NCBI GenBank assembly: GCA_026419835.1
Contig: JAOAKQ010000001.1
Location: 1 to 64,000 of the forward strand
Source of the DNA: Sulfolobales archaeon
GTDB taxonomy: Archaea > Thermoproteota > Thermoprotei_A > Sulfolobales > NBVN01
Length of the DNA stretch: 64,000 nucleotides
Direction: 5' to 3'
Shown here: positions 5,041-49,313 of the stretch, piece by piece
How the letters are laid out: each line of letters starts with the position of its first letter
How positions within the stretch are numbered: the first letter of the stretch is position 1
Notes under the pieces: generated by a model
Databases searched by the model: none
What the model was told of the DNA's origin: nothing
What the model saw: only the letters and a program-made list of their open reading frames with translations
Translations under genes and position numbers: made by a program

Positions 5041-6036
5041 GTGCCAATTCATCGAAGCATATCATTTAAAGTGCCCTACGAGTTGGAAAAAGTGTATGAA
5101 GTAGTATCGAGACCTAAAGACTTCTTCTCTCTACTTCCAATTTCAGCGGAGTTCAGATCTTTTAGAGGTAGTGACCTAGTTGTGCATTTGAGTGCTTTCG
5201 GATTGAAGGGTGATGCCGTTTTTAGCTTCGCAGCTTCTAAAAAAGTGAATAGAGTTATTGTTGAGAGCAGCTTGATTGGCGAGCTGATTATGGGGTTCTT
5301 TAGACCACCCCGCACGGATCTGAACTTTAGACTTCTCGCTACGAGGATTGGTGAAGAAACTGAGATTACGTTTGAACTCTACATAAAAGCCGGTGCTTTC
5401 AGAGAGAGAGTTTCTGGACTAGCTAGTGAAGCTGAGAAATTCATCTCCAGCATTCCTAAGAGCATTACTGAAGCTTTGAGGCAAGTTGCCGCTAAACCTG
5501 CGGTCGAAGTTAGGCGTGAAGAAGCGGTAGTCTCCAGCCTACCTACGACTTCGGTAATTGCCGTTAGCGAGAGGGGGGTCCCACCGGCAGAAGCAGAGAA
5601 AAGAGAGGAAAAACGTGGGTTAGCACGGACTCCGGCGGTTCCTATACCATCAGTAGAAAGTGCTAAACCCGTGGGTAGAGCTGTTTCAGATACTTATCTA
5701 GGTATTCTCGAAGATCCGGTAGCAATATATAGGTTAACCATTGGGGGGAAATCTATTGCTACCTTGAGAATGAAGTACTCCAGCGTTTTAATGAACGTTC
5801 TATCAGATATAAGTACCAAGAACAGCACCCCAATCTACGTAGTCCTCGTAAGCGAGAAACGAATAGCGAGATTAATAATGATTAAAGACGAGATACTCGG
5901 TATTGCGGTAGAGTACGAGAACGATGTAGTCAAGGGAGATAGAGCTCTCGAACTCCTAGAGAAAAGTGAGGAAGAATTCATTTGTGCTGTATTCGCAGTG
6001 AGTAAAGAACTCTTAGATTCGTTAAAGCCGTCTTAG
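5041..6036 (+). CDS. SRPBCC/CoxG-like protein with extra C-terminal domain
   Basis: Residues 1-150 look like an SRPBCC (START/Bet v1-like) domain of the CoxG type. It opens with a beta-strand and VYEVVSRPKDFFSLLP, then a curved sheet and a long C-terminal helix (SGLASEAEKFISS). A low-complexity Ala/Pro/Glu-rich linker (about 151-225) leads to a second alpha/beta domain of about 105 residues that I do not recognise. The GTG start has no Shine-Dalgarno; a T/A-rich element at about 5002-5011 suggests a leaderless transcript. CoxG-like proteins bind hydrophobic ligands; a ligand here is unknown. Confidence 0.6.
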   Translation: MPIHRSISFKVPYELEKVYEVVSRPKDFFSLLPISAEFRSFRGSDLVVHLSAFGLKGDAVFSFAASKKVNRVIVESSLIGELIMGFFRPPRTDLNFRLLATRIGEETEITFELYIKAGAFRERVSGLASEAEKFISSIPKSITEALRQVAAKPAVEVRREEAVVSSLPTTSVIAVSERGVPPAEAEKREEKRGLARTPAVPIPSVESAKPVGRAVSDTYLGILEDPVAIYRLTIGGKSIATLRMKYSSVLMNVLSDISTKNSTPIYVVLVSEKRIARLIMIKDEILGIAVEYENDVVKGDRALELLEKSEEEFICAVFAVSKELLDSLKPS

Positions 6037-6206
6037 CGCACCGAAGCTAATAAAGCACCCACTCAGAGTGCCGTTCGCATTAAGAGAGCTTTCCTGTACG
6101 TCCTAGTATGACTTCGAGCGCTCGTTACCTTTAACTAGATTAGAGCCGAAGCAAGTACGAGCGTAAAGCATAAAAATCGTAAGCTAGAAATAAATCGGGG
6201 GAGTTC
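6037..6206. other. Gene-free stretch before the isochorismatase-fold gene
   Basis: This spacer separates the SRPBCC gene from the hydrolase gene. It contains a 10-bp palindrome CGAGCGCTCG (6115-6124) and an A/T-rich element (ATAAAAATC near 6170) that may be the hydrolase promoter. I see no RNA gene or repeat. Confidence 0.3.
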
Positions 6207-6758
6207 GTGAGCGGGCATGCCGTTCTCGTTATCGATATGCTGCATGACTTTATTTACGGGAAGATTAAGTGCCAACCGTGCGCTGAAATTATCGGTAGTG
6301 TACAAAAAGTGGTTCGAGCGGCTAGATCTGCTGGTATTCCAGTAATTTACGTGAATGATTCTCACTTTCCCACGGACCCTGAGATGAGAATCTGGGGAGA
6401 GCACGCGATGAGAGGTGGGGAAGGGTCTAGAGTCGTAGAAGAGCTTAAGCCGCTAGATCGTGACTTCGTTTTAGAGAAGAGAACGTACTCCGCGTTCTTT
6501 GAGACCGGACTAGACCTTCTACTCAGAGGGCTTGGTGTAAGAACCGTTGTAATTACCGGGATACACACGCACATCTGCGTAAAGCACACAGCCGCTGACG
6601 CTTTCTTTAGGGGTTACAACATTGTGGTACTGCGGGACGCTACGGCAACGTTCAACTCTAGGGACCACGAAGAAGCTCTAAACTACATGAAAACAATGTA
6701 CGGAGCGGAAATAATGGCTTCAGAAGACCTTCTTCACCTTTGGACTTCGAAACGCTAA
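6207..6758 (+). CDS. Isochorismatase-fold cysteine hydrolase, nicotinamidase-like
   Basis: A 183-residue cysteine hydrolase. The catalytic triad is visible as Asp10 (VLVIDMLHDF), Lys91 (VLEKRTYSAF) and Cys124 (GIHTHICVKHTA). Asp51, His53 and His66 (NDSHF and WGEHAMRG) match the metal-binding residues of archaeal nicotinamidases. Nicotinamide deamidation to nicotinate in NAD salvage is therefore the best guess, but isochorismatase-like amidases share the fold. The GTG start follows GGGGGAG. Confidence 0.8.
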   Translation: MSGHAVLVIDMLHDFIYGKIKCQPCAEIIGSVQKVVRAARSAGIPVIYVNDSHFPTDPEMRIWGEHAMRGGEGSRVVEELKPLDRDFVLEKRTYSAFFETGLDLLLRGLGVRTVVITGIHTHICVKHTAADAFFRGYNIVVLRDATATFNSRDHEEALNYMKTMYGAEIMASEDLLHLWTSKR

Positions 6759-6830
6759 ATATGGTTAGGAATGGAGTCTCACCTTATTCTATTGAATCTC
6801 GAAGCGCAGAGAAGTACTGGGCATCCCGAC

Positions 6831-9485
6831 TCAAGTTACCTTTTCCGACATTTTTCTGAGAACTTCTTCGTAGAGTTTTAGAAGTAGTTTCTTTCTGTCT
6901 TCCATGAGTATCACATCACTGTAGCCGTGCGTAACCATTGAGTGAGCGAAAGGTGATGGAGGACCTCGAACTCTCATCAATTTCACCATAATATCGCCAG
7001 CTTTCATAGAGTTCAGTATTCTTTCGGCATCTTCGACATCCATGACGTCCTCCATAACTTCTCGGTAGGCTTCTTCTAGAATTGGGAATTCCTCTATTGT
7101 CTCTACGATCCTTATGAGGGTTTCAGCGTTTACCTGCCTTCTACTAACACTAGTTTCCTCACCTCTATAGTTTCTAAGAAGAGCTAGGGCTCTCTCAGCA
7201 CAGTGTCTAAATCTTCTCTTCAAGATCTCCGACCTTCTTAAAGCTCTTCTAAGTAGCTCTCTAAGCTGGCAATTCTTCAAGTCACTCAAAACTCTGTGGA
7301 CTACCTCGTCGTTGAACAGTACGTGCTTTGATGGAGCTGTCAGTATGAAGCCGTTATCGGTTACAGTTATTCTCACGTTAACGTCAATAAGATCGCTAGC
7401 GAGTAGAGCTGTAGCTCTAGCTAAGGCATCGTTAACTCTTCTTCCGAGTAGAGTATGGAATATCAAGTTATCGGTATACGATGCATCATCATACCACATC
7501 TCCACCAGAAAAACTCTCTCATCGGGTACGACTCCAACGTACTCCTTTTGTTCGTAAACGTAGTCCACTATGTACTTCGCTACCCGCTCATCTACGCCGT
7601 AACCTATTGAAACTTCACGTACAGCTCTCTTAAGGCCGACACTATCTATCATGCGGGAGACGTGTCCACGGAATTTAGCTACTTCAATTGCCGAATCGAA
7701 GGATAGTGGAAGCATCTCTGAAAACCAGCTCGGAACAGTAGGTTTCTGATGCTCTACCTTTCTCGCTACCACTCTCATAGCACTAGACTTCACGAACTGG
7801 AAGGTCCTGCCTCCAAGTACGAATACATCGCCTGGCTCCAGGTACTCAACAAACTCCTCCTCCAAGTCGCCGACGTAGCGCCCATCTTCAGTGAATACTC
7901 TGATCTTAGCTTCATCAGGTATAGCGCCGGAGTTTAGGTAGTATATGGCTCTTACACCTCTCTTCTTACCGAAAGCTTCTTCGTCTTCATAGTACCTTAT
8001 CTTAGAGTAGGTTCTCGTAGTCAATAGAACGTCTTCGTGCTTCCCAGATAGGTACTCTATAACCCGCATAAACTCGCCCCACGATAGTTCGCGGTAATTG
8101 TAAGATCTTCTAATAACCTCGTATGCTTCTCTAAGCTTCCACTTTCTCTCTAAAGACATCCCAACGATGTGCTGAGCGAGAATATCGAGGGGTTTTCTAA
8201 GTACTCTCACGCTATCGAGCTTTCTCTCCCTAGAGAGCTTAGCTAGGACTGTCACCTCAACGAGGTCGTCTCGATCTACAGCTACTATATACCCCCTACT
8301 AACATCGCTAATGCTGTGCCCGGACCTCCCAACTCTCTGAATCAACCTAGTAACACTCTTCGGAGAGCTGAGTAGGACTACCGCATCGATATGGCCTATA
8401 TCTACTCCTAGCTCTAGAGATGTAGAACTCACTATAGCTCTAAGATCGCCATTCTTAAGCTTGTTTTCTACGTCTAACCTAAGCTCTCTACTTAGCGAAC
8501 TATGGTGTGCTTCCACTTCATCAGCATCTAGTACACCTTCTTTCTCAAAGATCTTTCTCAACTTAAACACGACTCTCTCGGTAGAGCTTCTAGTGTTCGT
8601 AAACACTAGAGTAGTTCTATGCCGGAGAACTATCTTCTTCAGCTCCTGGTAGATGGCTTCGTTAACTACTTCAGCTGAGTCTCTTATGATATCGACCTTC
8701 GGGCACAGCACGTCGACCTCCATGGGCTTGAGGAATCTAGCGTCAACAACTACGCAGTCTCTAGGTTCCAGGCTCGATCTATAACCAACTAGAAACTGCG
8801 CAACTACTTCGAGAGGAGCTATTGTGGCACTCAAACCTATTCTCTGAAGCTCCCAAGGAATTAGTTCTTCAAGTCTTTCGAGAGTTAACGATAGATGGGC
8901 TCCTCTCTTGCTAGACGCCAGTTCGTGGACTTCATCTACCACGACCCACCTAACCCCCGATAGTTTCTCTCTAAATCTAGGTGCCACTAAAGCTATTGCT
9001 AGAGATTCTGGTGTAGTTACTAGTATGTGGGGAGGTTCCTTCAGCATCTTCTGTTTTTCGCTCGGTAGTGTATCGCTGGTTCTCACCTTCACTCTGAGCT
9101 CCGGAAGTTCTATACCCATTCCTAGGGCTACTTCACGTATTCCATCTATGGGCTTTCTCAGGTTTTTGACTATGTCGTTATTGAGAGCTCTAAGTGGGGA
9201 GATGTATACAGCGTACACGCTATCTTGAATTTGTCCTAGCTCACCTAATCTGTATAGCCCATCTACTATAGGTAGAAAGGCGGCGAGAGTCTTACCCGTA
9301 CCAGTAGGACTAGAGATGAGAACGTTGAGGCCCTGCTTTATGTACGGTATAGCCATAAGCTGAGAGGGAGTGAAGCTTCTAAAAGTTCTCTTAAACCACG
9401 CTACCGTGTACTCTCTAAGTAAACTCAGTACTTCATCTTCTCTAGGTACTTCAGCTACCACTTTAACTACAGCACATCCCTCCAC
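6831..9485 (-). CDS. lhr: Lhr-family superfamily 2 helicase
   Basis: An 884-residue ATP-dependent 3'-5' helicase of the Lhr (large helicase-related) family, linked to DNA repair and RNA-DNA unwinding. RecA domain 1 has the Q-motif region SFTPSQLMAIPYI, Walker A SSPTGTGKT and the DEVH box VVVDEVHELAS followed by LSATIAPLE. RecA domain 2 has SSTSLELGVDIGHID and motif VI QRVGRSGH. The remaining C-terminal part matches the Lhr winged-helix and beta-barrel core, without the long bacterial extension. The GTG at 9485 sits very close to a TATA-like CTTTAAGT, so the in-frame GTG at 9461 may be the true start. It converges with the hydrolase gene. Confidence 0.93.
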   Translation of the reverse strand: MEGCAVVKVVAEVPREDEVLSLLREYTVAWFKRTFRSFTPSQLMAIPYIKQGLNVLISSPTGTGKTLAAFLPIVDGLYRLGELGQIQDSVYAVYISPLRALNNDIVKNLRKPIDGIREVALGMGIELPELRVKVRTSDTLPSEKQKMLKEPPHILVTTPESLAIALVAPRFREKLSGVRWVVVDEVHELASSKRGAHLSLTLERLEELIPWELQRIGLSATIAPLEVVAQFLVGYRSSLEPRDCVVVDARFLKPMEVDVLCPKVDIIRDSAEVVNEAIYQELKKIVLRHRTTLVFTNTRSSTERVVFKLRKIFEKEGVLDADEVEAHHSSLSRELRLDVENKLKNGDLRAIVSSTSLELGVDIGHIDAVVLLSSPKSVTRLIQRVGRSGHSISDVSRGYIVAVDRDDLVEVTVLAKLSRERKLDSVRVLRKPLDILAQHIVGMSLERKWKLREAYEVIRRSYNYRELSWGEFMRVIEYLSGKHEDVLLTTRTYSKIRYYEDEEAFGKKRGVRAIYYLNSGAIPDEAKIRVFTEDGRYVGDLEEEFVEYLEPGDVFVLGGRTFQFVKSSAMRVVARKVEHQKPTVPSWFSEMLPLSFDSAIEVAKFRGHVSRMIDSVGLKRAVREVSIGYGVDERVAKYIVDYVYEQKEYVGVVPDERVFLVEMWYDDASYTDNLIFHTLLGRRVNDALARATALLASDLIDVNVRITVTDNGFILTAPSKHVLFNDEVVHRVLSDLKNCQLRELLRRALRRSEILKRRFRHCAERALALLRNYRGEETSVSRRQVNAETLIRIVETIEEFPILEEAYREVMEDVMDVEDAERILNSMKAGDIMVKLMRVRGPPSPFAHSMVTHGYSDVILMEDRKKLLLKLYEEVLRKMSEKVT

Positions 9486-10645: not shown

Positions 10646-10680
10646 GCACTTCCTCCTTAACGTTTAAAGCAAGCCGAGAC

Positions 10681-10953
10681 TTAAAAGCTTTTGCGCTCTC
10701 CCACAGCTCTAACAACCTTCCTAATCATATCAGATAGAAGAATCACCTCGTTCAAGACCGAGCCTAAGGTTAGGATATCCTCACTAAAGCAATCACCGCA
10801 GCCCACCTCGTATACGTAGCAACCATTTGTACTTGAACTAGTTAACGTGAATTTTTTAGGAGGAACGTCATCTGGACTGAGAGACCTGGCTAGAACGCTA
10901 GCTGGAAGCTCACTAAAACACAGCATTAACCTAGCTTTAAGTTTAATTCTCAC
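10681..10953 (-). CDS. KEOPS complex subunit Pcc1-like
   Basis: A 90-residue protein that fits the Pcc1/CTAG family: RLMLCFSELPASVLARSLSPDD at the start (the 'A..LARSLSPDD' element), two beta-strands, then a C-terminal helix pair with TLGSVLNEVILLSDMI, equivalent to the family's TLRSTLNDLLxxI motif. Pcc1 dimerises and binds tRNA and Kae1 in the KEOPS complex that makes t6A37. Its position beside S3Ae supports the call. Two cysteines (CGDC) in the middle are unusual for the family. Confidence 0.7.
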   Translation of the reverse strand: MRIKLKARLMLCFSELPASVLARSLSPDDVPPKKFTLTSSSTNGCYVYEVGCGDCFSEDILTLGSVLNEVILLSDMIRKVVRAVGERKSF

Positions 10954-11020
10954 TTAAAGCACCACAGCATACCCTTCTCGTCGGGGAAGCTCTTTAGCGG
11001 GAACGCGCTTATTTCAATAC

Positions 11021-11425
11021 TCACGCCAACTTCACCTTCTTCGCTATCCTACTTCTAACAATACCTCTAGCGGAGTTAACGTAGAGCTGCCAGTAGTTTA
11101 TTAAGTCTCTACCTACGTAAGCTTCGTAGAGCGGGTTTCTTCTTAGAGGTTTAGCTACGTGAACTACTGTTTGATACGGAATTTCGTACCCGTTGAAAGC
11201 AACTTTATCGATTACGCATAGGGAAAATATAGCGTAGCTCCACACGCCTCCCACACTTACTTCTACTTCTTTAAGCGATTCAACGTTTTCAAAGCACTTA
11301 AGGTCTTCCGCTATAGAGACGTCTATAAACGAAGTATTGATGTCTTCGGTTACTAGAGCTCTAGCATAGCTAAATCTACTTCCTTTAAATAGCCCGAGCA
11401 GTAGCACTACTTCAAATTTATTCAT
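11021..11425 (-). CDS. Unknown protein, possibly an inactive retropepsin-like fold
   Basis: A 134-residue protein with no clear family. It is predicted to be mostly beta. Two stretches recall clan AA aspartic proteases: ALVTEDINTSFIDVS sits where those enzymes have ALVDTGAS, and YVGRDLINYWQLYV resembles the 'hLGRDhLxxxxhxh' C-terminal motif. The Asp-Thr-Gly triad is absent, so catalysis is unlikely. It lies between the PP-loop-like gene and pcc1, all on the minus strand. A TATA-like GCTTATTAAG precedes its ATG by about 33 bp. The fold assignment is a guess. Confidence 0.45.
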   Translation of the reverse strand: MNKFEVVLLLGLFKGSRFSYARALVTEDINTSFIDVSIAEDLKCFENVESLKEVEVSVGGVWSYAIFSLCVIDKVAFNGYEIPYQTVVHVAKPLRRNPLYEAYVGRDLINYWQLYVNSARGIVRSRIAKKVKLA

Positions 11426-11500
11426 ACTCTTCGCAATAGTCTATGCGTGACTCACTTAATAAGCAAATTCAGCGGTGCGTTCGAACTACTCCTAGGCCAG

Positions 11501-12217
11501 CTAAGTTTCGACATTACGTAGGAATCTGTAGACTAACTCTGGGTGTTTTAGTGATAGCCACACGGCGAGTTTTTCTAAGACCTCTACATTCCCGACGGAG
11601 GTATTGAAGCAATCCAAACTCTTCAAAATCCCGGAGATGTGAGCGTACGCAGTGACATCAGTTTTAAGCACTCTGTACATAGGAACTACGACCTCTACAT
11701 CGCCGGACTTAAAGTATATTCTCGGTTTCTCGATTACGTACTTATTGACTAGGTTTTTCAGAAACAGAGTAAGTATATCGTTTAGAGTCTCTGGAAGAGC
11801 TACTACATCTAATCTAGTGGTTAAGCCGGCTATAGCTTTCTGAACGTAGCCACCTTCGAGAACGTCCCTACCTAGGCTCGAGAAAACTACGTCTTGACAA
11901 TATCTTCTAAAAACTGAGTAGCACTCGAAAAGTTCTTCTTCTAGAACTACGCACACAACTTCACTGTTGAACCCTCTTTCAATATCGCTAAGGATCTTCA
12001 TTAGAACGGTGCTTTCTACAATCCTATGCGAGTAAACTAGGACAGCTATCTTAAGTCCGAAGCTCTTTTTTCTAATTAAAGAGAAAGACCTCTTGATTTC
12101 TCTAGCAAGATCTCTGTAGAGACAGATAGCGCAAAGCTTCTCACCTGAATGTCTTCTATAGTAGCTAGCGGAACGCCTTCCGCAACTCGAGCAAAGAACT
12201 GCTTCCGCACTCCTCAT
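11501..12217 (-). CDS. Degenerate Ncs6/TtcA-like PP-loop protein
   Basis: The N-terminus has two CxxC pairs (CSSCGRR and LCAICLYRDL; Cys 9, 12, 29, 32 from the start used here), the zinc-finger layout of Ncs6/TtuA tRNA thiolases, followed by an alpha/beta region. The PP-loop where those enzymes have SGGKDS reads VYSHRIVES, so the pyrophosphate-binding glycines, Lys and Asp are missing. No other catalytic motif is seen. ATG 12217 is preferred because a TATA-like TATAAAGT at about 12235-12242 is 20-25 bp upstream, which excludes the GTG at 12235. It diverges from the flavoprotein gene. Confidence 0.55.
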   Translation of the reverse strand: MRSAEAVLCSSCGRRSASYYRRHSGEKLCAICLYRDLAREIKRSFSLIRKKSFGLKIAVLVYSHRIVESTVLMKILSDIERGFNSEVVCVVLEEELFECYSVFRRYCQDVVFSSLGRDVLEGGYVQKAIAGLTTRLDVVALPETLNDILTLFLKNLVNKYVIEKPRIYFKSGDVEVVVPMYRVLKTDVTAYAHISGILKSLDCFNTSVGNVEVLEKLAVWLSLKHPELVYRFLRNVET

Positions 12218-42734: not shown

Positions 42735-43337
42735 ATGGAGTCTTCGAGTGCTCTCGTAGAAGATCTGTGTCGCGTTATGAAGTACATGTACGTGAAGGGT
42801 CTGATATCGGCTCTCAGTGGAAATGCCAGCATTAAGTTAGATGATACTAGGATTGCGATAACACCTTCCGGTAGAGCGAAGTTTCTTCTTAGACCTGAGG
42901 ATGTGTCCATAGTAAGTACGAGCGGAGAACATCTGAGCGGTCCAAGGCCTTCTGTGGAGGTTTGTATGCACTTAAGGATATACTCGAACTGCCCTGACTG
43001 TAGGTCGGTAGTGCACGCTCACGGACTTCTCTCACCTCTTCTGGTGGGATTACTAGAACCCATTGAAGATTTAGAGATTAGGGCTTACGGAATCAGGATC
43101 TGCTACGTGGGTGAGCTAACTCCAGGATCTAGGGAGCTCGCTGAAGCGGTAGGTAGAGCTGTGTCTAGCGGCTGCAAGGTGGTTGTACTTAAGAATCACG
43201 GAATTGTGGGAGTAGGGAGAAGTCTCGGGGAAGCGCTTGAAGCTGTCGAAGCTGTTGAGAATTCTTTTAAGAAGAGCCTAGTGCTTTACGTGCTAGATAA
43301 GCTGAAAGCTTTCTCTACGCAGACTATCTCTAGATGA
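42735..43337 (+). CDS. Class II aldolase/adducin-family protein
   Basis: A 200-residue zinc-dependent aldolase of the fuculose-1-phosphate/ribulose-5-phosphate epimerase type. GLISALSGNASIKL begins the fold. The catalytic Glu75 lies in PSVEVCMHL, and zinc ligands are His94, His96 (VVHAHGLLS) and His155 (LKNHGIVGVG). The sugar phosphate is unknown; the neighbouring deoC suggests salvage of pentose moieties. The start follows GGGGCGTGTG and a TATA-like TCTTAAAAC. Confidence 0.88.
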   Translation: MESSSALVEDLCRVMKYMYVKGLISALSGNASIKLDDTRIAITPSGRAKFLLRPEDVSIVSTSGEHLSGPRPSVEVCMHLRIYSNCPDCRSVVHAHGLLSPLLVGLLEPIEDLEIRAYGIRICYVGELTPGSRELAEAVGRAVSSGCKVVVLKNHGIVGVGRSLGEALEAVEAVENSFKKSLVLYVLDKLKAFSTQTISR

Positions 43338-43420
43338 GTGGAATCTCTTCGTACATCAGCTATAGGACGGAGAGCTCTTCACTACATTACCACACTCGTA
43401 TTCGAGGCGTCGGTCTTCAG

Positions 43421-43780
43421 CTACTCGAGGAAAAACATCTTCTTTAGAATTCTTATAATCCCCCTTCTCCTCTTTCTTTCCTGAGCTTTTACTGATTCCA
43501 GGACCTCTTCACCGTAGAGTGCGGCAATTAGCATCTTAGACTGCTGGTCCCGCATGTCTTCCGGCTCTATTCTCTCCGCTACTGCTAGAAGTCTGTCCAG
43601 TTCCTCATCAGTTGCGTGATCTAGTGGATTACCTCTTCTTTCATTAAGTTCCCAGCGCTGATATAGCTGTGTTAGTAGTTCCATGGCTTCGTCGTTCGAG
43701 TAGAATGCTGCCTTTCTCCACGGCTCGACGCTTAGGTCCACTAACTCCATAAGTCTTCTCTTCTTGGACTCTATATTCAC
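43421..43780 (-). CDS. Helical protein, unknown
   Basis: A 119-residue charged, helical protein ending in a basic stretch (ERKRRRGIIRILKKMFF). No family is recognised. It diverges from the winged-helix gene, with A/T-rich promoter elements in the 60 bp between them, and converges with the aldolase gene. Codon use and composition look like its neighbours, so it is probably real. Confidence 0.55.
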   Translation of the reverse strand: MNIESKKRRLMELVDLSVEPWRKAAFYSNDEAMELLTQLYQRWELNERRGNPLDHATDEELDRLLAVAERIEPEDMRDQQSKMLIAALYGEEVLESVKAQERKRRRGIIRILKKMFFLE

Positions 43781-43840
43781 ACTCTACACCTCTACCCAGT
43801 GCTTATTAGCTTCTTAACATTATAAGTTCCTTGGTATATC

Positions 43841-44542
43841 TTGAGCGTAGAATCTAGAGTAATTAGGTACTTGAAGGAAAATCCGGGAGCTACTCCCAGA
43901 TTAATTGCTGATGCTCTAGGACTTTCGATAAGTCAAGTCCGGCTCGCACTTAGTAAGTTAAGAGATTCCGGCTACGTAGTTAGAATTCCCGGTGAAGGAT
44001 ACTACGTAAGAGCCTCCATAGATTCTAGAGATTTGGAGGTAGCTGAGGCTGACTACGGCTTGAAATCGAGGAAAGAGGAAGGTGGTAATCTCACTCAACT
44101 TATTGAGAGAATTAGGGAAACGGTTGACGGTCTAGCTAGTAGAGTAGATAGACTTGAAAAAGAAGTGAAGGAAGTCAGATTAGTTCTCGAAGCACTTACG
44201 AAAGCAAACCAGGAAGCTAAACTAAGACCTTCCGCAACTTCTGAAGTTCGAGAAGACCCCGTTGTTAAAGAGTTGAAGAACAGAAAGATTATGAAGGTTA
44301 GCGAAGTTCTAGCCATAGCTACGAAACCACTAGAAGAATATGTGAAATCTGGTTTGTTGAAGATCGTATCCGACTTAGCTGTTTACTACGAGTTCTATAA
44401 TCACTTCGTAAGTAGGTTTCCGATAAAGAAGCTTGAAGTATCTAAGCTAAGTAATGAAGAAAGAGAGCTCATGAATGCTATGATTAGAGATGGGATGGTC
44501 TACCTACATGGTGGGAGAGAGTACAGGCTTATTCTCTCCTAG
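43841..44542 (+). CDS. Winged-helix protein with coiled coil
   Basis: A 233-residue protein. Residues 1-55 are a winged helix (ATPRLIADALGLSISQVRLALSKLRDSGYV). A coiled coil follows at about 83-115 (heptads in LTQLIERIRETVDGLASRVDRL), then a C-terminal helical domain. A TATA-like ATTATAAG (43815-43823) lies 20-26 bp before the TTG start. It is probably a transcription regulator; the target is unknown. Confidence 0.7.
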   Translation: MSVESRVIRYLKENPGATPRLIADALGLSISQVRLALSKLRDSGYVVRIPGEGYYVRASIDSRDLEVAEADYGLKSRKEEGGNLTQLIERIRETVDGLASRVDRLEKEVKEVRLVLEALTKANQEAKLRPSATSEVREDPVVKELKNRKIMKVSEVLAIATKPLEEYVKSGLLKIVSDLAVYYEFYNHFVSRFPIKKLEVSKLSNEERELMNAMIRDGMVYLHGGREYRLILS

Positions 44543-44608
44543 TTTCGCTCAGCTAGAGAGGCACTTCTTGAAGTAAGGTTTTATGCATTCTAAGCAGCTG
44601 TAAAGAGG

Positions 44609-45976
44609 GTGTTGAGAGTGCTTGATAATATAGTTGAGAAATGCGCTGGGAATTCTATCTGCATTGTTGAAGAGTTTAAGCTGCGTCTAGATGAAGGTTA
44701 TAGTCCAACTCAAGACGAGGTAAAATACGTTTCAGCTCTACTAGGCGAGTCTACGAAGAAGGTCGAAGTTTTGAAGAGTAAGTACATCGACGTCTTTACG
44801 CGTTTAGTCGAGAAGAACTGTAGCTACGTTGGGGATGAGTCTCTCTGCATCTACACGTGGAATCCGAAAATACCTGTGAGGTACTTCCCCGTATCTCTCG
44901 ATGCTACAGGTACCGTACTCCACTTCAGTAAGTCTCAAGTTTCTCTAGTTGCGTACCCCGCGCACAGGTCCTACGACCTAGAGAGCGGGGGCGTCGAAGT
45001 ACCCGACCCTGAGAAGGTTAGAGTTGTAGAGGTAACTTCCAGAGTTGACGGGTATCAGATCACTTTCTACTTCAATAATCTACTGAAGAGGTGGGTTCCG
45101 GCTACGAGATACGTTCTTCACAATATGAGGTACGTAAGAAATAGACTAGTGGAAGAAGACCTAGCCAACATAATTAACCCGTACGCAGCCGTAGCTGACC
45201 ACATAGCATGGAGTAGAGGTCTGTACGAGAGAATTAAGGACATGGTTGGGTGGACATTTACCTTCGTCCTGAAAGCTCCGGAGCCAGCAATTCTTAAACC
45301 TAACGTAGAGCTATATAGTTACGAAGACTTTAAACTATACCTAATAAACGCTCGCGAACCCGGAGGGCGCTTACTAACAACGGAAGAATCCTCTCAGCTA
45401 GTGAGATGGGAGAGCGTTCCAGTTGAGAAAATCGAGGTGGGCAGCGCGTCCAAGCTGAAAGAACTTGTAAATACGTGGAGCGCGGATATCTACGTAAGAT
45501 CGAGATTTCTGAGATTCGCATCGCGGGACCCGGTGAGACCCTACGTAGTTGAAGTAAGATCGAAACTCTACGAAAACGCCGTTCTCGTTAAGTACTCCTC
45601 CGATCCCAAGTCGCTCATAGTCCTAGCTTCCCACGGACTTGGCGGTGAGGGGGTGAAGCTACTAACGGACTACCGAGATGTTAGAGCTGTAGGTAGAGAG
45701 ATCTGCGAGCTATATCAAGAACTTAGGGACATCGTTTCTCAGCTTTTAAGTAGCGCTGTAATTGAGGAAATTATGAGAGATCTGAAGCTATCGAGAGATC
45801 TATTCGGAGAGCTCGAGAAAGCGAGGCGTTCGGGGGGTTTAGATAGATTCACTAGAAAGCTTTCTCTAGCTGTGTCGAGCGAGAACATCTATGAAACGAG
45901 AGACAAGTTAAGAGCTCTCGTAGAAGAGTTGAAGAGAAGGTCGAGATCGCATCAGGAGTTATCAAAGCAGTTTTAA
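44609..45976 (+). CDS. T4 Rnl1-like RNA ligase homologue lacking catalytic residues
   Basis: A 455-residue protein whose middle aligns by eye with T4 RNA ligase 1. A Phe/Pro-rich lead-in (FSKSQVSLVAYPAHRSYDLES) parallels the Rnl1 segment before motif I. TSRVDGYQITF stands at motif I, where ligases have KxDG; the nucleotidyl Lys is replaced by Arg145. WTFTFVLKAPEPAILKP parallels Rnl1's motif IIIa region, and PYVVEVRSKLYENAVLVKY the region of motifs IV and V, without the EGxV Glu. A helical C-terminus follows. It is probably a pseudoenzyme. It lies just upstream of glmS. Confidence 0.6.
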   Translation: MLRVLDNIVEKCAGNSICIVEEFKLRLDEGYSPTQDEVKYVSALLGESTKKVEVLKSKYIDVFTRLVEKNCSYVGDESLCIYTWNPKIPVRYFPVSLDATGTVLHFSKSQVSLVAYPAHRSYDLESGGVEVPDPEKVRVVEVTSRVDGYQITFYFNNLLKRWVPATRYVLHNMRYVRNRLVEEDLANIINPYAAVADHIAWSRGLYERIKDMVGWTFTFVLKAPEPAILKPNVELYSYEDFKLYLINAREPGGRLLTTEESSQLVRWESVPVEKIEVGSASKLKELVNTWSADIYVRSRFLRFASRDPVRPYVVEVRSKLYENAVLVKYSSDPKSLIVLASHGLGGEGVKLLTDYRDVRAVGREICELYQELRDIVSQLLSSAVIEEIMRDLKLSRDLFGELEKARRSGGLDRFTRKLSLAVSSENIYETRDKLRALVEELKRRSRSHQELSKQF

Positions 45977-46014
45977 GCGTTCTCGGGTATTTGAGTCTAG
46001 AGTTGGTGCTCAGA

Positions 46015-47835
46015 ATGTGCGGGATTGTAGCGATTACTAGTAGTAATAGAAGAGGGGATCTGGGAATCCTCCTCACGGAAGCACTGAAGAAATTGGAGTA
46101 TAGAGGTTACGATTCCGTAGGTATAGCTGTGGTGGACCAGGGCAATCTCTACGTAGCTAAAAACGTGGGAACGGTTGAATCGGTAGCTAAATCGGAAAAC
46201 TTCGCATCTCTCTCCGGTTGTGTAGGTATAGGTCACACTAGGTGGGCAACGCACGGAGCTCCGAGTAAGAAAAACTCCCACCCACACACCGACTGCGCCA
46301 AGAAGATCGCGGTTGTACACAACGGAATTATAGAGAACTACAGTGAACTTAAAAACTTTCTTCTAAGTAGGGGTCACGTATTCATTAGTGATACGGATAC
46401 CGAGGTCGTGCCTCACTTAATAGAGGAATTCAAGCGTGCTGGGTTAGATACATACTCAGCGTTTAGGAAAGCCGTTTCTATGCTCAGAGGAACTTTTGCT
46501 ATTGTTGCTATAGATATTGATGGAGGGCGGAAGCTCTTGTTTACGAGAAAAGTATCACCACTTGTTGTAGGTATTGGCAGCGATTTCGTACTAGTATCAA
46601 GTGATATCGTTAGTATTCTTCCGTATACAGATAGAGTGGTAGTGCTAAACGATGATGAGGTGGGATACGCAGAACCTGGTAGAGTGTTTATAGAGACCGT
46701 CGGCGGTCGTTCAGTAGATGTAGCTAGCAGAGTAATGAAAGTAGACTACGGCGTAGAGGATTTCGATAAGGGTCCTTACGAGCACTACATGATTAAGGAA
46801 ATTCGGGAACAGCCCTACACTCTAAATCAAACACTATCCGGACTAATTTCTTCTAGAGACGAGGTCGAGAAGTCCTTGAAGTTACTTGAGAGTGCCGACA
46901 GCATATACATTGTTGGAGCTGGAAGTTCGTACTACGCATCACTTCTAGGTTCACTCTACTTCAGGTATCTCGGGTTTAGAGCTCAAGCACTAGTGTCTTC
47001 TGAAGCAACTCCGTATCTTAGAGGAGTGAGACCTGGAGATGTTGTTGTAGTAGTTAGTCAGTCGGGGGAGACTATAGACACCCTTCTAGCGATGAGAGAG
47101 TCTGCGAAAAGAGGTGCTAGAGTTGTAGCGATCGTAAACAACCCGCTATCGACAATAGCTAGAGAGTCAGACGCGTACGTATACATGAAGTCCGGCCCCG
47201 AGATATGTGTTGCCGCTACTAAGACGTTCACTTCTCAGGTACTGGTGCTCTCGTACCTAGGCTTAGCAATGACTAGAGATAGTCACCGCATCGAAGCCTC
47301 CCTCAGAGCTCTTAGAAGACTTCCAGAGATTACCGCATCTATGATCAGCTCCACGGAGAATGCTGCGCGGAAAGTAGCGAAAAAGATATCAACGGAACAC
47401 TCGGTTTACTACCTCGGTAGAGCGTTTGGCTACCCTATATCAGCTGAAGCGGCTTTAAAGATGAAGGAAGTTGCCTACGTACATGCTGAAGCATATCCAG
47501 CTGGTGAGTCGAAGCACGGTCCAATAGCTCTAGTAGCTAGCGGATTCCCAGTAGTGTTCACGATTGTTGGGGAACTCGACGAACTAATTGAAGGAAATAT
47601 TGAGGAAATGAAAGCTAGAGGCGCCTACGTCATTACCTACGCCCCGAGCGATAGAATTACTTCTACTGTAGAGAGAAATAGCGATCTAGTAATTCCACTA
47701 CCTCAGGTACTTCTTGAAGTATCTCTAGTTACGTACGTAATACCGCATCAGCTACTAGCATACTATACATCAATTGAAAGAGGGTACAATCCCGATAGAC
47801 CTAGAAATCTAGCTAAAACAGTTACAGTATTCTAA
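46015..47835 (+). CDS. glmS: Glutamine-fructose-6-phosphate aminotransferase (isomerizing)
   Basis: Makes glucosamine 6-phosphate, the entry to UDP-GlcNAc and archaeal glycans. The glutaminase domain starts at MCGIVAITSS; Cys2 is the N-terminal nucleophile after Met removal, so ATG 46015 is the start (606 residues) with GGTGCTC just upstream. GIGHTRWATHG and HNGIIENYSEL follow. Two SIS domains bind the sugar phosphate (VGAGSSYYASLLG, SQSGETIDTLLAM, and ESKHGPIALV). Confidence 0.96.
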   Translation: MCGIVAITSSNRRGDLGILLTEALKKLEYRGYDSVGIAVVDQGNLYVAKNVGTVESVAKSENFASLSGCVGIGHTRWATHGAPSKKNSHPHTDCAKKIAVVHNGIIENYSELKNFLLSRGHVFISDTDTEVVPHLIEEFKRAGLDTYSAFRKAVSMLRGTFAIVAIDIDGGRKLLFTRKVSPLVVGIGSDFVLVSSDIVSILPYTDRVVVLNDDEVGYAEPGRVFIETVGGRSVDVASRVMKVDYGVEDFDKGPYEHYMIKEIREQPYTLNQTLSGLISSRDEVEKSLKLLESADSIYIVGAGSSYYASLLGSLYFRYLGFRAQALVSSEATPYLRGVRPGDVVVVVSQSGETIDTLLAMRESAKRGARVVAIVNNPLSTIARESDAYVYMKSGPEICVAATKTFTSQVLVLSYLGLAMTRDSHRIEASLRALRRLPEITASMISSTENAARKVAKKISTEHSVYYLGRAFGYPISAEAALKMKEVAYVHAEAYPAGESKHGPIALVASGFPVVFTIVGELDELIEGNIEEMKARGAYVITYAPSDRITSTVERNSDLVIPLPQVLLEVSLVTYVIPHQLLAYYTSIERGYNPDRPRNLAKTVTVF

Positions 47836-47870
47836 GATGACGGTTTCTGCGAAGATAGCTTACCCACCCA

Positions 47871-49313
47871 CTAGGACGCTAACTCTTTAACCATGTAGGG
47901 ACCGCTCTCAATTTTTCTATAGCCATGTTTTCGGTAGTATTCTCTGGCACCAACACCCGGGAGAACGAATACCCTGCGGCAGCTGAATTCGTATCTCGCT
48001 ACATCTTCAGCTTCGCGGAGGAGTCTAGCGCCCCACCCCCTGTGCTGCCAAGAATTCTCGTCTCTAATTCCGACCGGAACTTCGGGTCCGTAGACGTGTA
48101 GCTCTCTAATAATGGCTGACCTATCTTTAAGTTCCGGTCTATGAGCTTTCTCTGAAGGAATTCTAAGTCTAAGTATCCCCACTACAACTCTAGAAGAGGG
48201 GTCCTCCACCGATAGGAATACCTCCATACCTCTACTTGCTTCATAGTGCTCTCTCTTTATAGACAGGTCTGATGGCTCGACTCCCCTGTAAAACTCCTGG
48301 CGACCGACTTCTCTAAACCTTATTTCCCTAATATCTATTCCCTTATCAATAGCTCGAAGTTCGACGAGTTCGCGCAGATTGCCTTTTCTAGGTCCAGCCT
48401 CGATGTACTGAACCGGTATATCTCGCTGAATTCTCATAACTCTAACCCACTTCGGTACGTACTTATAAGTCTCAGAGATCAGTTCGATAGCTTCTTCATC
48501 TGTGTACGGTCTGTACCTCCCCTCGATCCACCAATTATAGAGCTCCGTGCCTCTGACTACTACCGTTGGGTATATCTTGAGCATGTCGGGTCTGAAGTCG
48601 GGGTTCTCGAAGAGCTCTCTAACCATCTGGATATCTCTATCCGGATCCGAACCCGGTAGTCCCGGCATTACGTGGTAGACTACCTTAAACCCGCTATCCT
48701 TGAGAACTCTGGTAGCTTCAACCGTATCTCGCACAGTATGGCCTCTCCTCACTAACGCGAGGACGTCGTCAAAGACTGTCTGAACTCCTACTTCAACTCT
48801 AGTAGCACCTAGATAGAGCATTCGATCTGCGTGTTTTTCTTTAGCGAAATCAGGTCTTGTCTCTATTGTTAAGCCAACAATTCTAATCTTAGCTACCTCA
48901 TTTAATTTCTGAGCTTCTTGTAGACTAGGTGTTTCAGAAGACTTCCGCTCCGGGTACCTATTGGCAGCATGGAATACGTTCGCTATGAACCACTCCTGGT
49001 AACCTTCCGGTAGGGCCATAAACGTGCCACCCATAACAACCACCTCCACCTTACTGGGAACTTGACCGAGGAGCTCGTACTGAGCTAACCTCGCTCTTAC
49101 CTGCTGATACGGGTCGAAGTTAACCCTCAGAGCTCTCATAAGTGCTGGTTCCTCACCTATGTAGCTCTGTGGGGTACCAAAGTCCGGCCCCCCCGGGCAG
49201 TAGACACATTTACCGTGCGGGCACGGATGCGGCTTAGTCATAACCGCAACTACGGAGACTCCTGATAGCATCCTAGTCGGCTTCCTAACTTTCTCTAGGC
49301 GAACCGCGCTCAT
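47871..49313 (-). CDS. elp3: Elp3-family tRNA uridine-34 acetyl-CoA-dependent enzyme
   Basis: A 480-residue radical SAM plus GNAT protein that forms carboxymethyl-type modifications at wobble uridine 34. The radical SAM cluster motif is in PHPCPHGKCVYCPGG, followed by VVMGGTFMALP and IETRPDF. The C-terminal acetyltransferase domain ends with WGARLLREAEDVARYEF. A TATA-like CATTAAATAA about 26 bp upstream of the ATG suggests a leaderless mRNA. It converges with glmS. Confidence 0.95.
   Translation of the reverse strand: MSAVRLEKVRKPTRMLSGVSVVAVMTKPHPCPHGKCVYCPGGPDFGTPQSYIGEEPALMRALRVNFDPYQQVRARLAQYELLGQVPSKVEVVVMGGTFMALPEGYQEWFIANVFHAANRYPERKSSETPSLQEAQKLNEVAKIRIVGLTIETRPDFAKEKHADRMLYLGATRVEVGVQTVFDDVLALVRRGHTVRDTVEATRVLKDSGFKVVYHVMPGLPGSDPDRDIQMVRELFENPDFRPDMLKIYPTVVVRGTELYNWWIEGRYRPYTDEEAIELISETYKYVPKWVRVMRIQRDIPVQYIEAGPRKGNLRELVELRAIDKGIDIREIRFREVGRQEFYRGVEPSDLSIKREHYEASRGMEVFLSVEDPSSRVVVGILRLRIPSEKAHRPELKDRSAIIRELHVYGPEVPVGIRDENSWQHRGWGARLLREAEDVARYEFSCRRVFVLPGVGAREYYRKHGYRKIESGPYMVKELAS

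Follow-up and report, generated by a model that had tools for sequence, protein, structure and literature searches.

A conserved archaeal descendant of Rnl1-type RNA ligases that has probably lost its adenylation chemistry

A ligase-like gene in a Sulfolobales genome

What does a protein with the layout of an RNA ligase do when the lysine that should carry the nucleotide is an arginine? The question is raised by a gene in a 64,000-nucleotide stretch of a Sulfolobales archaeon (contig JAOAKQ010000001.1, positions 1 to 64,000, hereafter the window). The archaeal source assembly has 1.42 Mb and is 84% complete, and its closest named relative is the Sulfolobales MAG SKW299 (77% identity). The gene is intact and full-length, as an initial annotation had stated, with a frame that is uninterrupted from a GTG start to the stop codon and a product of 455 aa. 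The position of a possible TATA-like box upstream would fit a leaderless transcript, and the true start of glmS, the downstream neighbor, is probably the ATG at 46015. Scans of the window protein with Pfam, NCBIfam, and PHROG returned no family above noise, and an Rfam scan of 43000-48500 matched no RNA element.

Table 1 Features of the locus (window positions; residue numbers of the window protein; fractions refer to the 31 pseudo-ligases)
Feature	Position	Strand	Basis and remarks
Pseudo-RNA-ligase gene	44609..45976	+	GTG start, 455 codons; open reading frame, orthologues, and hhalign to Rnl1-type ligases (E 7e-24)
Possible TATA-like box	44578..44587	+	About 25 bases 5' of the GTG; suggested by sequence inspection
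Nucleotidyltransferase-like domain, residues 70-345	44816..45643	+	Aligned to true ligases and T4 RnlA
Thr100 at the T4 Arg54 position	44906..44908	+	Alignment; Arg lost
Arg120 at the T4 Lys75 position	44966..44968	+	R 20/31, K 11/31; partial loss
Motif I RVDG	45041..45052	+	Arg145 replaces nucleotidyl Lys99; Asp147 and Gly148 kept
Motif Ia region ATRYVLHNM	45101..45127	+	T166, H171, N172, and M173 invariant; R167 is R/K
Motif III region FVLKAPEPA	45263..45289	+	Val220 replaces Glu159; EPA (225-227) newly conserved
Motif IV Arg297-Ser298	45497..45502	+	Replaces Glu227-Gly228; 297: R 24/31, P 7/31; 298: S 30/31
Motif V EVRS	45551..45562	+	Glu315 replaces Lys240, Arg317 replaces Lys242; Ser318 kept
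C-terminal all-helical region, residues 346-455	45644..45973	+	Predicted; lower conservation
glmS	45991..47835	+	Downstream neighbor, same direction

Homology to Rnl1-type ligases

We searched 214 genomes of the order and found 29 full-length orthologues, including the window's own; extending the search with an alignment profile to 398 genomes of the phylum yielded two more, both from another order, giving 31. The order-wide search also returned five short matches, which represent a different, catalytically intact protein of genus g16 that exceeds the curated cut-off of the Pfam family RNA_lig_T4_1. To the g16 proteins we joined three other ligases of the order and a single one found elsewhere in the phylum, which gives our set of nine active-type Rnl1 ligases. 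The same Pfam model (PF09511), which describes T4 RNA ligase 1, does not match the window protein or the six other pseudo-ligases scanned. The RtcB model (PF01139) does not match the window protein either, and RtcB is encoded by a separate gene in the same genome.

Using hhalign, a profile of the 29 orthologues alone aligned with the nine archaeal ligases over 343 columns (99.6%, E 7e-24), and the nine-ligase profile retrieved T4 Rnl1 from the PDB (E 1.3e-14). Direct alignment of the pseudo-ligases with T4 RnlA gave E 1.2e-4 and a probability of 55%, and T4 RnlA scored 9.3 bits against the pseudo-only HMM, where the best of 2,000 shuffles scored 4.2 bits; by this measure the resemblance is not due to chance. 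A control alignment of the pseudo-ligases with Rnl3 had a probability of 0.5%, with no profile match. Since the pseudo-only profile did not retrieve Rnl1 from the PDB by sequence and the direct match to T4 RnlA is weak, the archaeal ligases are needed as a bridge: through them the link to Rnl1 is secure, and without them it would be only suggestive. MAFFT and profile alignments made via these ligases follow the protein along T4 RNA ligase 1 without a change in domain order, starting ahead of motif I and ending past motif V, as the initial annotation had proposed. Judged from these alignments, the family belongs to the Rnl1 superfamily by descent.

AlphaFold2 runs with a two-row input (the window protein and one orthologue, L002, only) gave models with pLDDT of 40.7 and 37.0 that are too poor to interpret; helices were predicted with confidence from residue 361 or so onward (most blocks at pLDDT 75-85). 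Foldseek with the poor two-row model (pLDDT 37-41) found nothing significant, and its top match, at a non-significant E of 0.17, was the adenylyltransferase domain of Candida glabrata tRNA ligase (9qw7), which the nine-ligase profile also matches weakly (E 7e-5). This domain belongs to an active eukaryotic enzyme, and we do not count the fold match as evidence.

Most of the catalytic residues are replaced

In T4 Rnl1, the residues R54, K75, K99, E159, E227, G228, K240, and K242 are essential. In a MAFFT alignment of the 31 homologues with the nine true ligases and T4 RnlA, every one of these residues is kept in the active-type ligases (9/9). In the pseudo-ligases, the position of T4 K99 is taken by Arg145 (codon 45041-45043), which is fixed in 31/31 sequences, as are the following D147 and G148 (T4 D101 and G102), whereas motif I of the true ligases has K in 9/9. 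The initial annotation had named this arginine as the replacement of the nucleotidyl lysine and asked whether it is fixed among orthologues or whether a nearby lysine restores motif I; no column between residues 125 and 174 has Lys in more than 9/31 sequences, so no substitute lysine was found there. Its second claim, that the motif IV Glu is missing, also holds, since the T4 E227 position is occupied by Arg297. The replacements extend further than that annotation described, to R54 (Thr100), K75 (Arg120), E159 (Val220; Glu in 0/31), G228 (Ser298), K240 (Glu315; E in 29/31, D in 2/31), and K242 (Arg317), the last being K in 11/31, so that T4 K242 is only partly lost. Thus, the family departs from active Rnl1 at KxDG (RxDG in 31/31), at the motif IV Glu, and at the KxK of motif V. 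What it retains of T4 RNA ligase 1 are the equivalents of Asp101, Gly102, the basic residue 119 (R167, at the T4 K119 position), Ser243 (S318), and Tyr246 (Y321), and T4 F77 aligns to Y122 of the window protein.

With residues of motifs I, III, IV, and V replaced, adenylation chemistry is almost certainly lost, in agreement with the initial annotation, and the joining of RNA has very probably gone with it. Taken together, descent from Rnl1 and loss of adenylation form a reading of the alignments in which we place high confidence. Several near-invariant positions have appeared that are absent or rare in the ligases, namely Y154, W162, Y168, H171, N172, M173, E225-P226, and K334; the NM pair is not present in the true ligases. 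The fixation of new residues at some changed sites (Arg145, Ser298, and Glu315) suggests that the pocket was rebuilt and did not decay.

The closest catalytically intact relatives found are five archaeal Rnl1-like ligases (L015, L016, and L034-L036), which we take to be of Ignicoccus type. They share with the pseudo-ligases the C71/C80-Y82 region, GT, DG, R249, and a C-terminal Arg. However, their KLDG, FEL, EG, and KxKS are intact and their length is about 333-365 aa; a longer helical C-terminus and an insert that contains HNM set the pseudo-ligases apart. The C-terminal region is less conserved than the nucleotidyltransferase-like domain (median 0.32 versus 0.52), and the nucleotidyltransferase part has a median net charge of -2 in the pseudo-ligases versus +1 in the true ligases.

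Spread and selection

The pseudo-ligases form one clade that spans 16 genera and seven families, with a patchy distribution in which most genomes of the order have no copy. The branch that parts them from the ligases has a support of 97/99, and the ligase side of the tree contains one very long branch (L085). The tree roughly tracks families, with genus g56 of family f9 nested among members of f2, a placement that likely reflects at least one transfer. In one genome (G069; L032 and L039), a pseudo-ligase coexists with an Rnl1-type ligase whose motifs are intact, and in another (G170) an Rnl1-type ligase frame of 233 aa (L086) has an intact motif I and appears truncated after motif Ia. Viral origin or carriage was considered and rejected: no relative was found on viral contigs, and among phages the true ligase comes closest to ordinary T4-like rnlA genes, at about 24% identity.

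dN/dS is about 0.09-0.21 for pairs in which both rates are computable, some other pairs being near saturation, and the family is under long-term purifying selection. Conservation is higher in the old active-site columns than elsewhere in the domain (P 0.0025), and marginally so when only the nine changed active-site columns are taken (P 0.037).

Gene neighborhood

The initial annotation had placed the gene beside glmS. This adjacency is found in five of the six gene-carrying genomes of the window's genus and was seen nowhere else; within the genus, G003 carries the pseudo-ligase without it, and G004, which is 97% complete, has no pseudo-ligase and a different sequence upstream of its glmS. Since the adjacency is confined to one genus, we give it no functional weight and reject a glmS operon. 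G003 and G004 each contain two glmS-like genes; compared with the window's glmS, one is about 47-53% identical and the other about 34-36%.

Clustering of 560 neighboring ORFs revealed no partner common to several families, the largest shared cluster being unrelated ABC ATPases. A primase-like neighbor (c40) was rejected as a partner because it occurs in 9/29 carriers and 10/29 non-carriers (P 0.5). A 450-aa protein that has no Pfam match and looks primase-like by eye (10657-12009 (+) at locus L049 and 5982-7352 (-) at L057) adjoins or lies near the pseudo-ligase in two families; it is multi-copy in several genomes and shows no overall association. A PPP-type metallophosphoesterase lies about 0.2-7.4 kb from the pseudo-ligase at L052, L053, L056, L057, and L061 (families f2 and f5). 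A 119-aa protein of unknown family (43421-43780, -, in the window) and a class II aldolase-like gene (42735-43337, +) are found close to the pseudo-ligase in the window's genus and again in genus g37 of f5 (L056, L061, L062, and L063); these shared surroundings are perhaps a remnant of an ancestral neighborhood.

Rnl3, RtcB, and RtcA in the same genomes

Rnl3 (Pab1020, MthRnl, TK1545), the standard ATP-dependent RNA ligase of archaea, shares the ATP-dependent ligase superfamily with the pseudo-ligases and occurs in the same order, but its catalytic residues are intact and it is mostly found in genomes other than the carriers of the pseudo-ligase. It is present in 69/214 genomes, a count that leaves out a 70th match in G116 as a decayed copy; these remnants (contig C33, 2200-3056) have four internal stops, and G116 itself has the pseudo-ligase. 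Rnl3 is found in 2/29 carriers versus 67/185 non-carriers (Fisher P 7e-4, with related genomes that are not independent). The scarcity has P 0.03 at the genus level and P of about 0.005 when stratified by family, with family sizes deduced from how the genome handles are ordered. Genus g30 is divided, with two genomes that have the pseudo-ligase without Rnl3 and four with the reverse, and counting it as having both raises the genus-level P to 0.11. Two genomes, G032 (100% complete) and G107, have both genes, and about half of all genomes have neither. A control gene in the same test showed no such exclusion pattern (P 0.5). Shared ancestry or coincidence could account for the loss of Rnl3.

RtcB and RtcA are the usual archaeal RNA-end enzymes. 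RtcB was present in 41/41 genomes tested, carriers and non-carriers alike, and RtcA in all well-completed genomes tested, whether or not the pseudo-ligase is present. The initial annotation had suggested a part in tRNA intron biology, which we reject given this distribution and the patchiness of the pseudo-ligase gene. In four genomes (G044, G141, G037, and G081), the RtcB frames are about 955-973 aa long, and the break in their family match around residue 49 resembles an intein.

A binding pocket as the favored explanation

We propose that the protein is a pseudoenzyme that descended, with a single origin, from an Rnl1-type ligase, and that it would be unable to adenylate itself or RNA and probably also unable to seal pre-adenylated RNA. 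The old nucleotide pocket, built of Arg145, Asp147, Ser298, and Glu315 together with the new aromatic, HNM, and EPA invariants, may bind a ligand without ligase chemistry. A conserved function of the pocket other than ligation is probable. An RNA end, or a small structured RNA, would be the likeliest ligand, given that the protein descends from an RNA ligase and that carriers seldom have Rnl3; still, the assignment of an RNA end, though plausible, stays below even odds, and the nucleotidyltransferase domain is not basic, so RNA binding is not favored by its charge. As a whole, this picture of a protein that binds or protects RNA ends, in lineages mostly devoid of the ATP-dependent circularizing ligase Rnl3, is our best explanation and a tentative one that falls short of even odds; against it stand the failure to find a conserved partner gene and the chance that the loss of Rnl3 reflects coincidence or shared ancestry. 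Rnl3 circularizes C/D box sRNAs in Thermococcus kodakarensis (PMC9014305). It is improbable that the pseudo-ligases, as an ancient family, replace Rnl3 on its own RNA substrates (C/D box sRNAs, for instance) and deal with RNA ends through binding, or through new chemistry in the rebuilt pocket, in place of ATP-dependent sealing.

The main rival to a binding role is a new enzymatic activity, in which the ligase scaffold has been re-used for another reaction with Arg145, Tyr168, His171, Asn172, Glu225, and Glu315 as a new active site. Many invariant polar and aromatic residues missing from true ligases have been gained at or beside the old motifs, and the above-average conservation of the changed columns fits selection on the pocket rather than on a surface. 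However, invariance fits binding as well as it fits catalysis, and any clustering of these residues is putative; we regard a new reaction as rather unlikely. About equally unlikely is that the protein serves an RNA processing complex as a regulator or as a subunit without catalysis, using the fold for contacts with a protein such as RtcB or a phosphatase. The ubiquity of RtcB in the genomes tested and the phosphatase near the gene in two families would fit this role, but RtcB is equally frequent where the pseudo-ligase is missing, the phosphatase is near in only five loci, and no partner is consistently linked.

A residual ligase that bypasses self-adenylation and joins only pre-adenylated RNA has a precedent in the motif I mutant K97A of MthRnl, which keeps full step-3 sealing of pre-adenylated donors, but the double mutant K97A K246A (motifs I and V) has no activity in any step (PMC3514331). 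The positions of K97 and K246 are both changed in 31/31 pseudo-ligases, which have also lost the motif IV Glu along with the first motif V Lys in 31/31, and sealing of this kind is very improbable. Least credible is a decaying remnant heading for loss: the gene is patchy and missing from most genomes of the order, yet it is intact in 29 genomes, has dN/dS well below 1, and keeps invariant sites across families within a single ancient clade, which already contradicts decay. We retain a pocket that binds a ligand as the preferred reading.

Implications

In the literature outside subscription journals, our search found no account of an Rnl1 lineage that has lost catalysis yet is conserved in cellular genomes. 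If RNA binding is true, a ligase fold would have been turned into a reader of RNA ends, and the near-exclusion with Rnl3 would provide a handle on how archaea manage when they are unable to circularize C/D box sRNAs. A ligase homologue in these genomes cannot safely be assumed to ligate. A group of heat-loving archaea keeps an intact, strongly conserved descendant of an Rnl1-type ligase whose chemical residues are almost all exchanged; very probably it has stopped joining RNA and serves another job.
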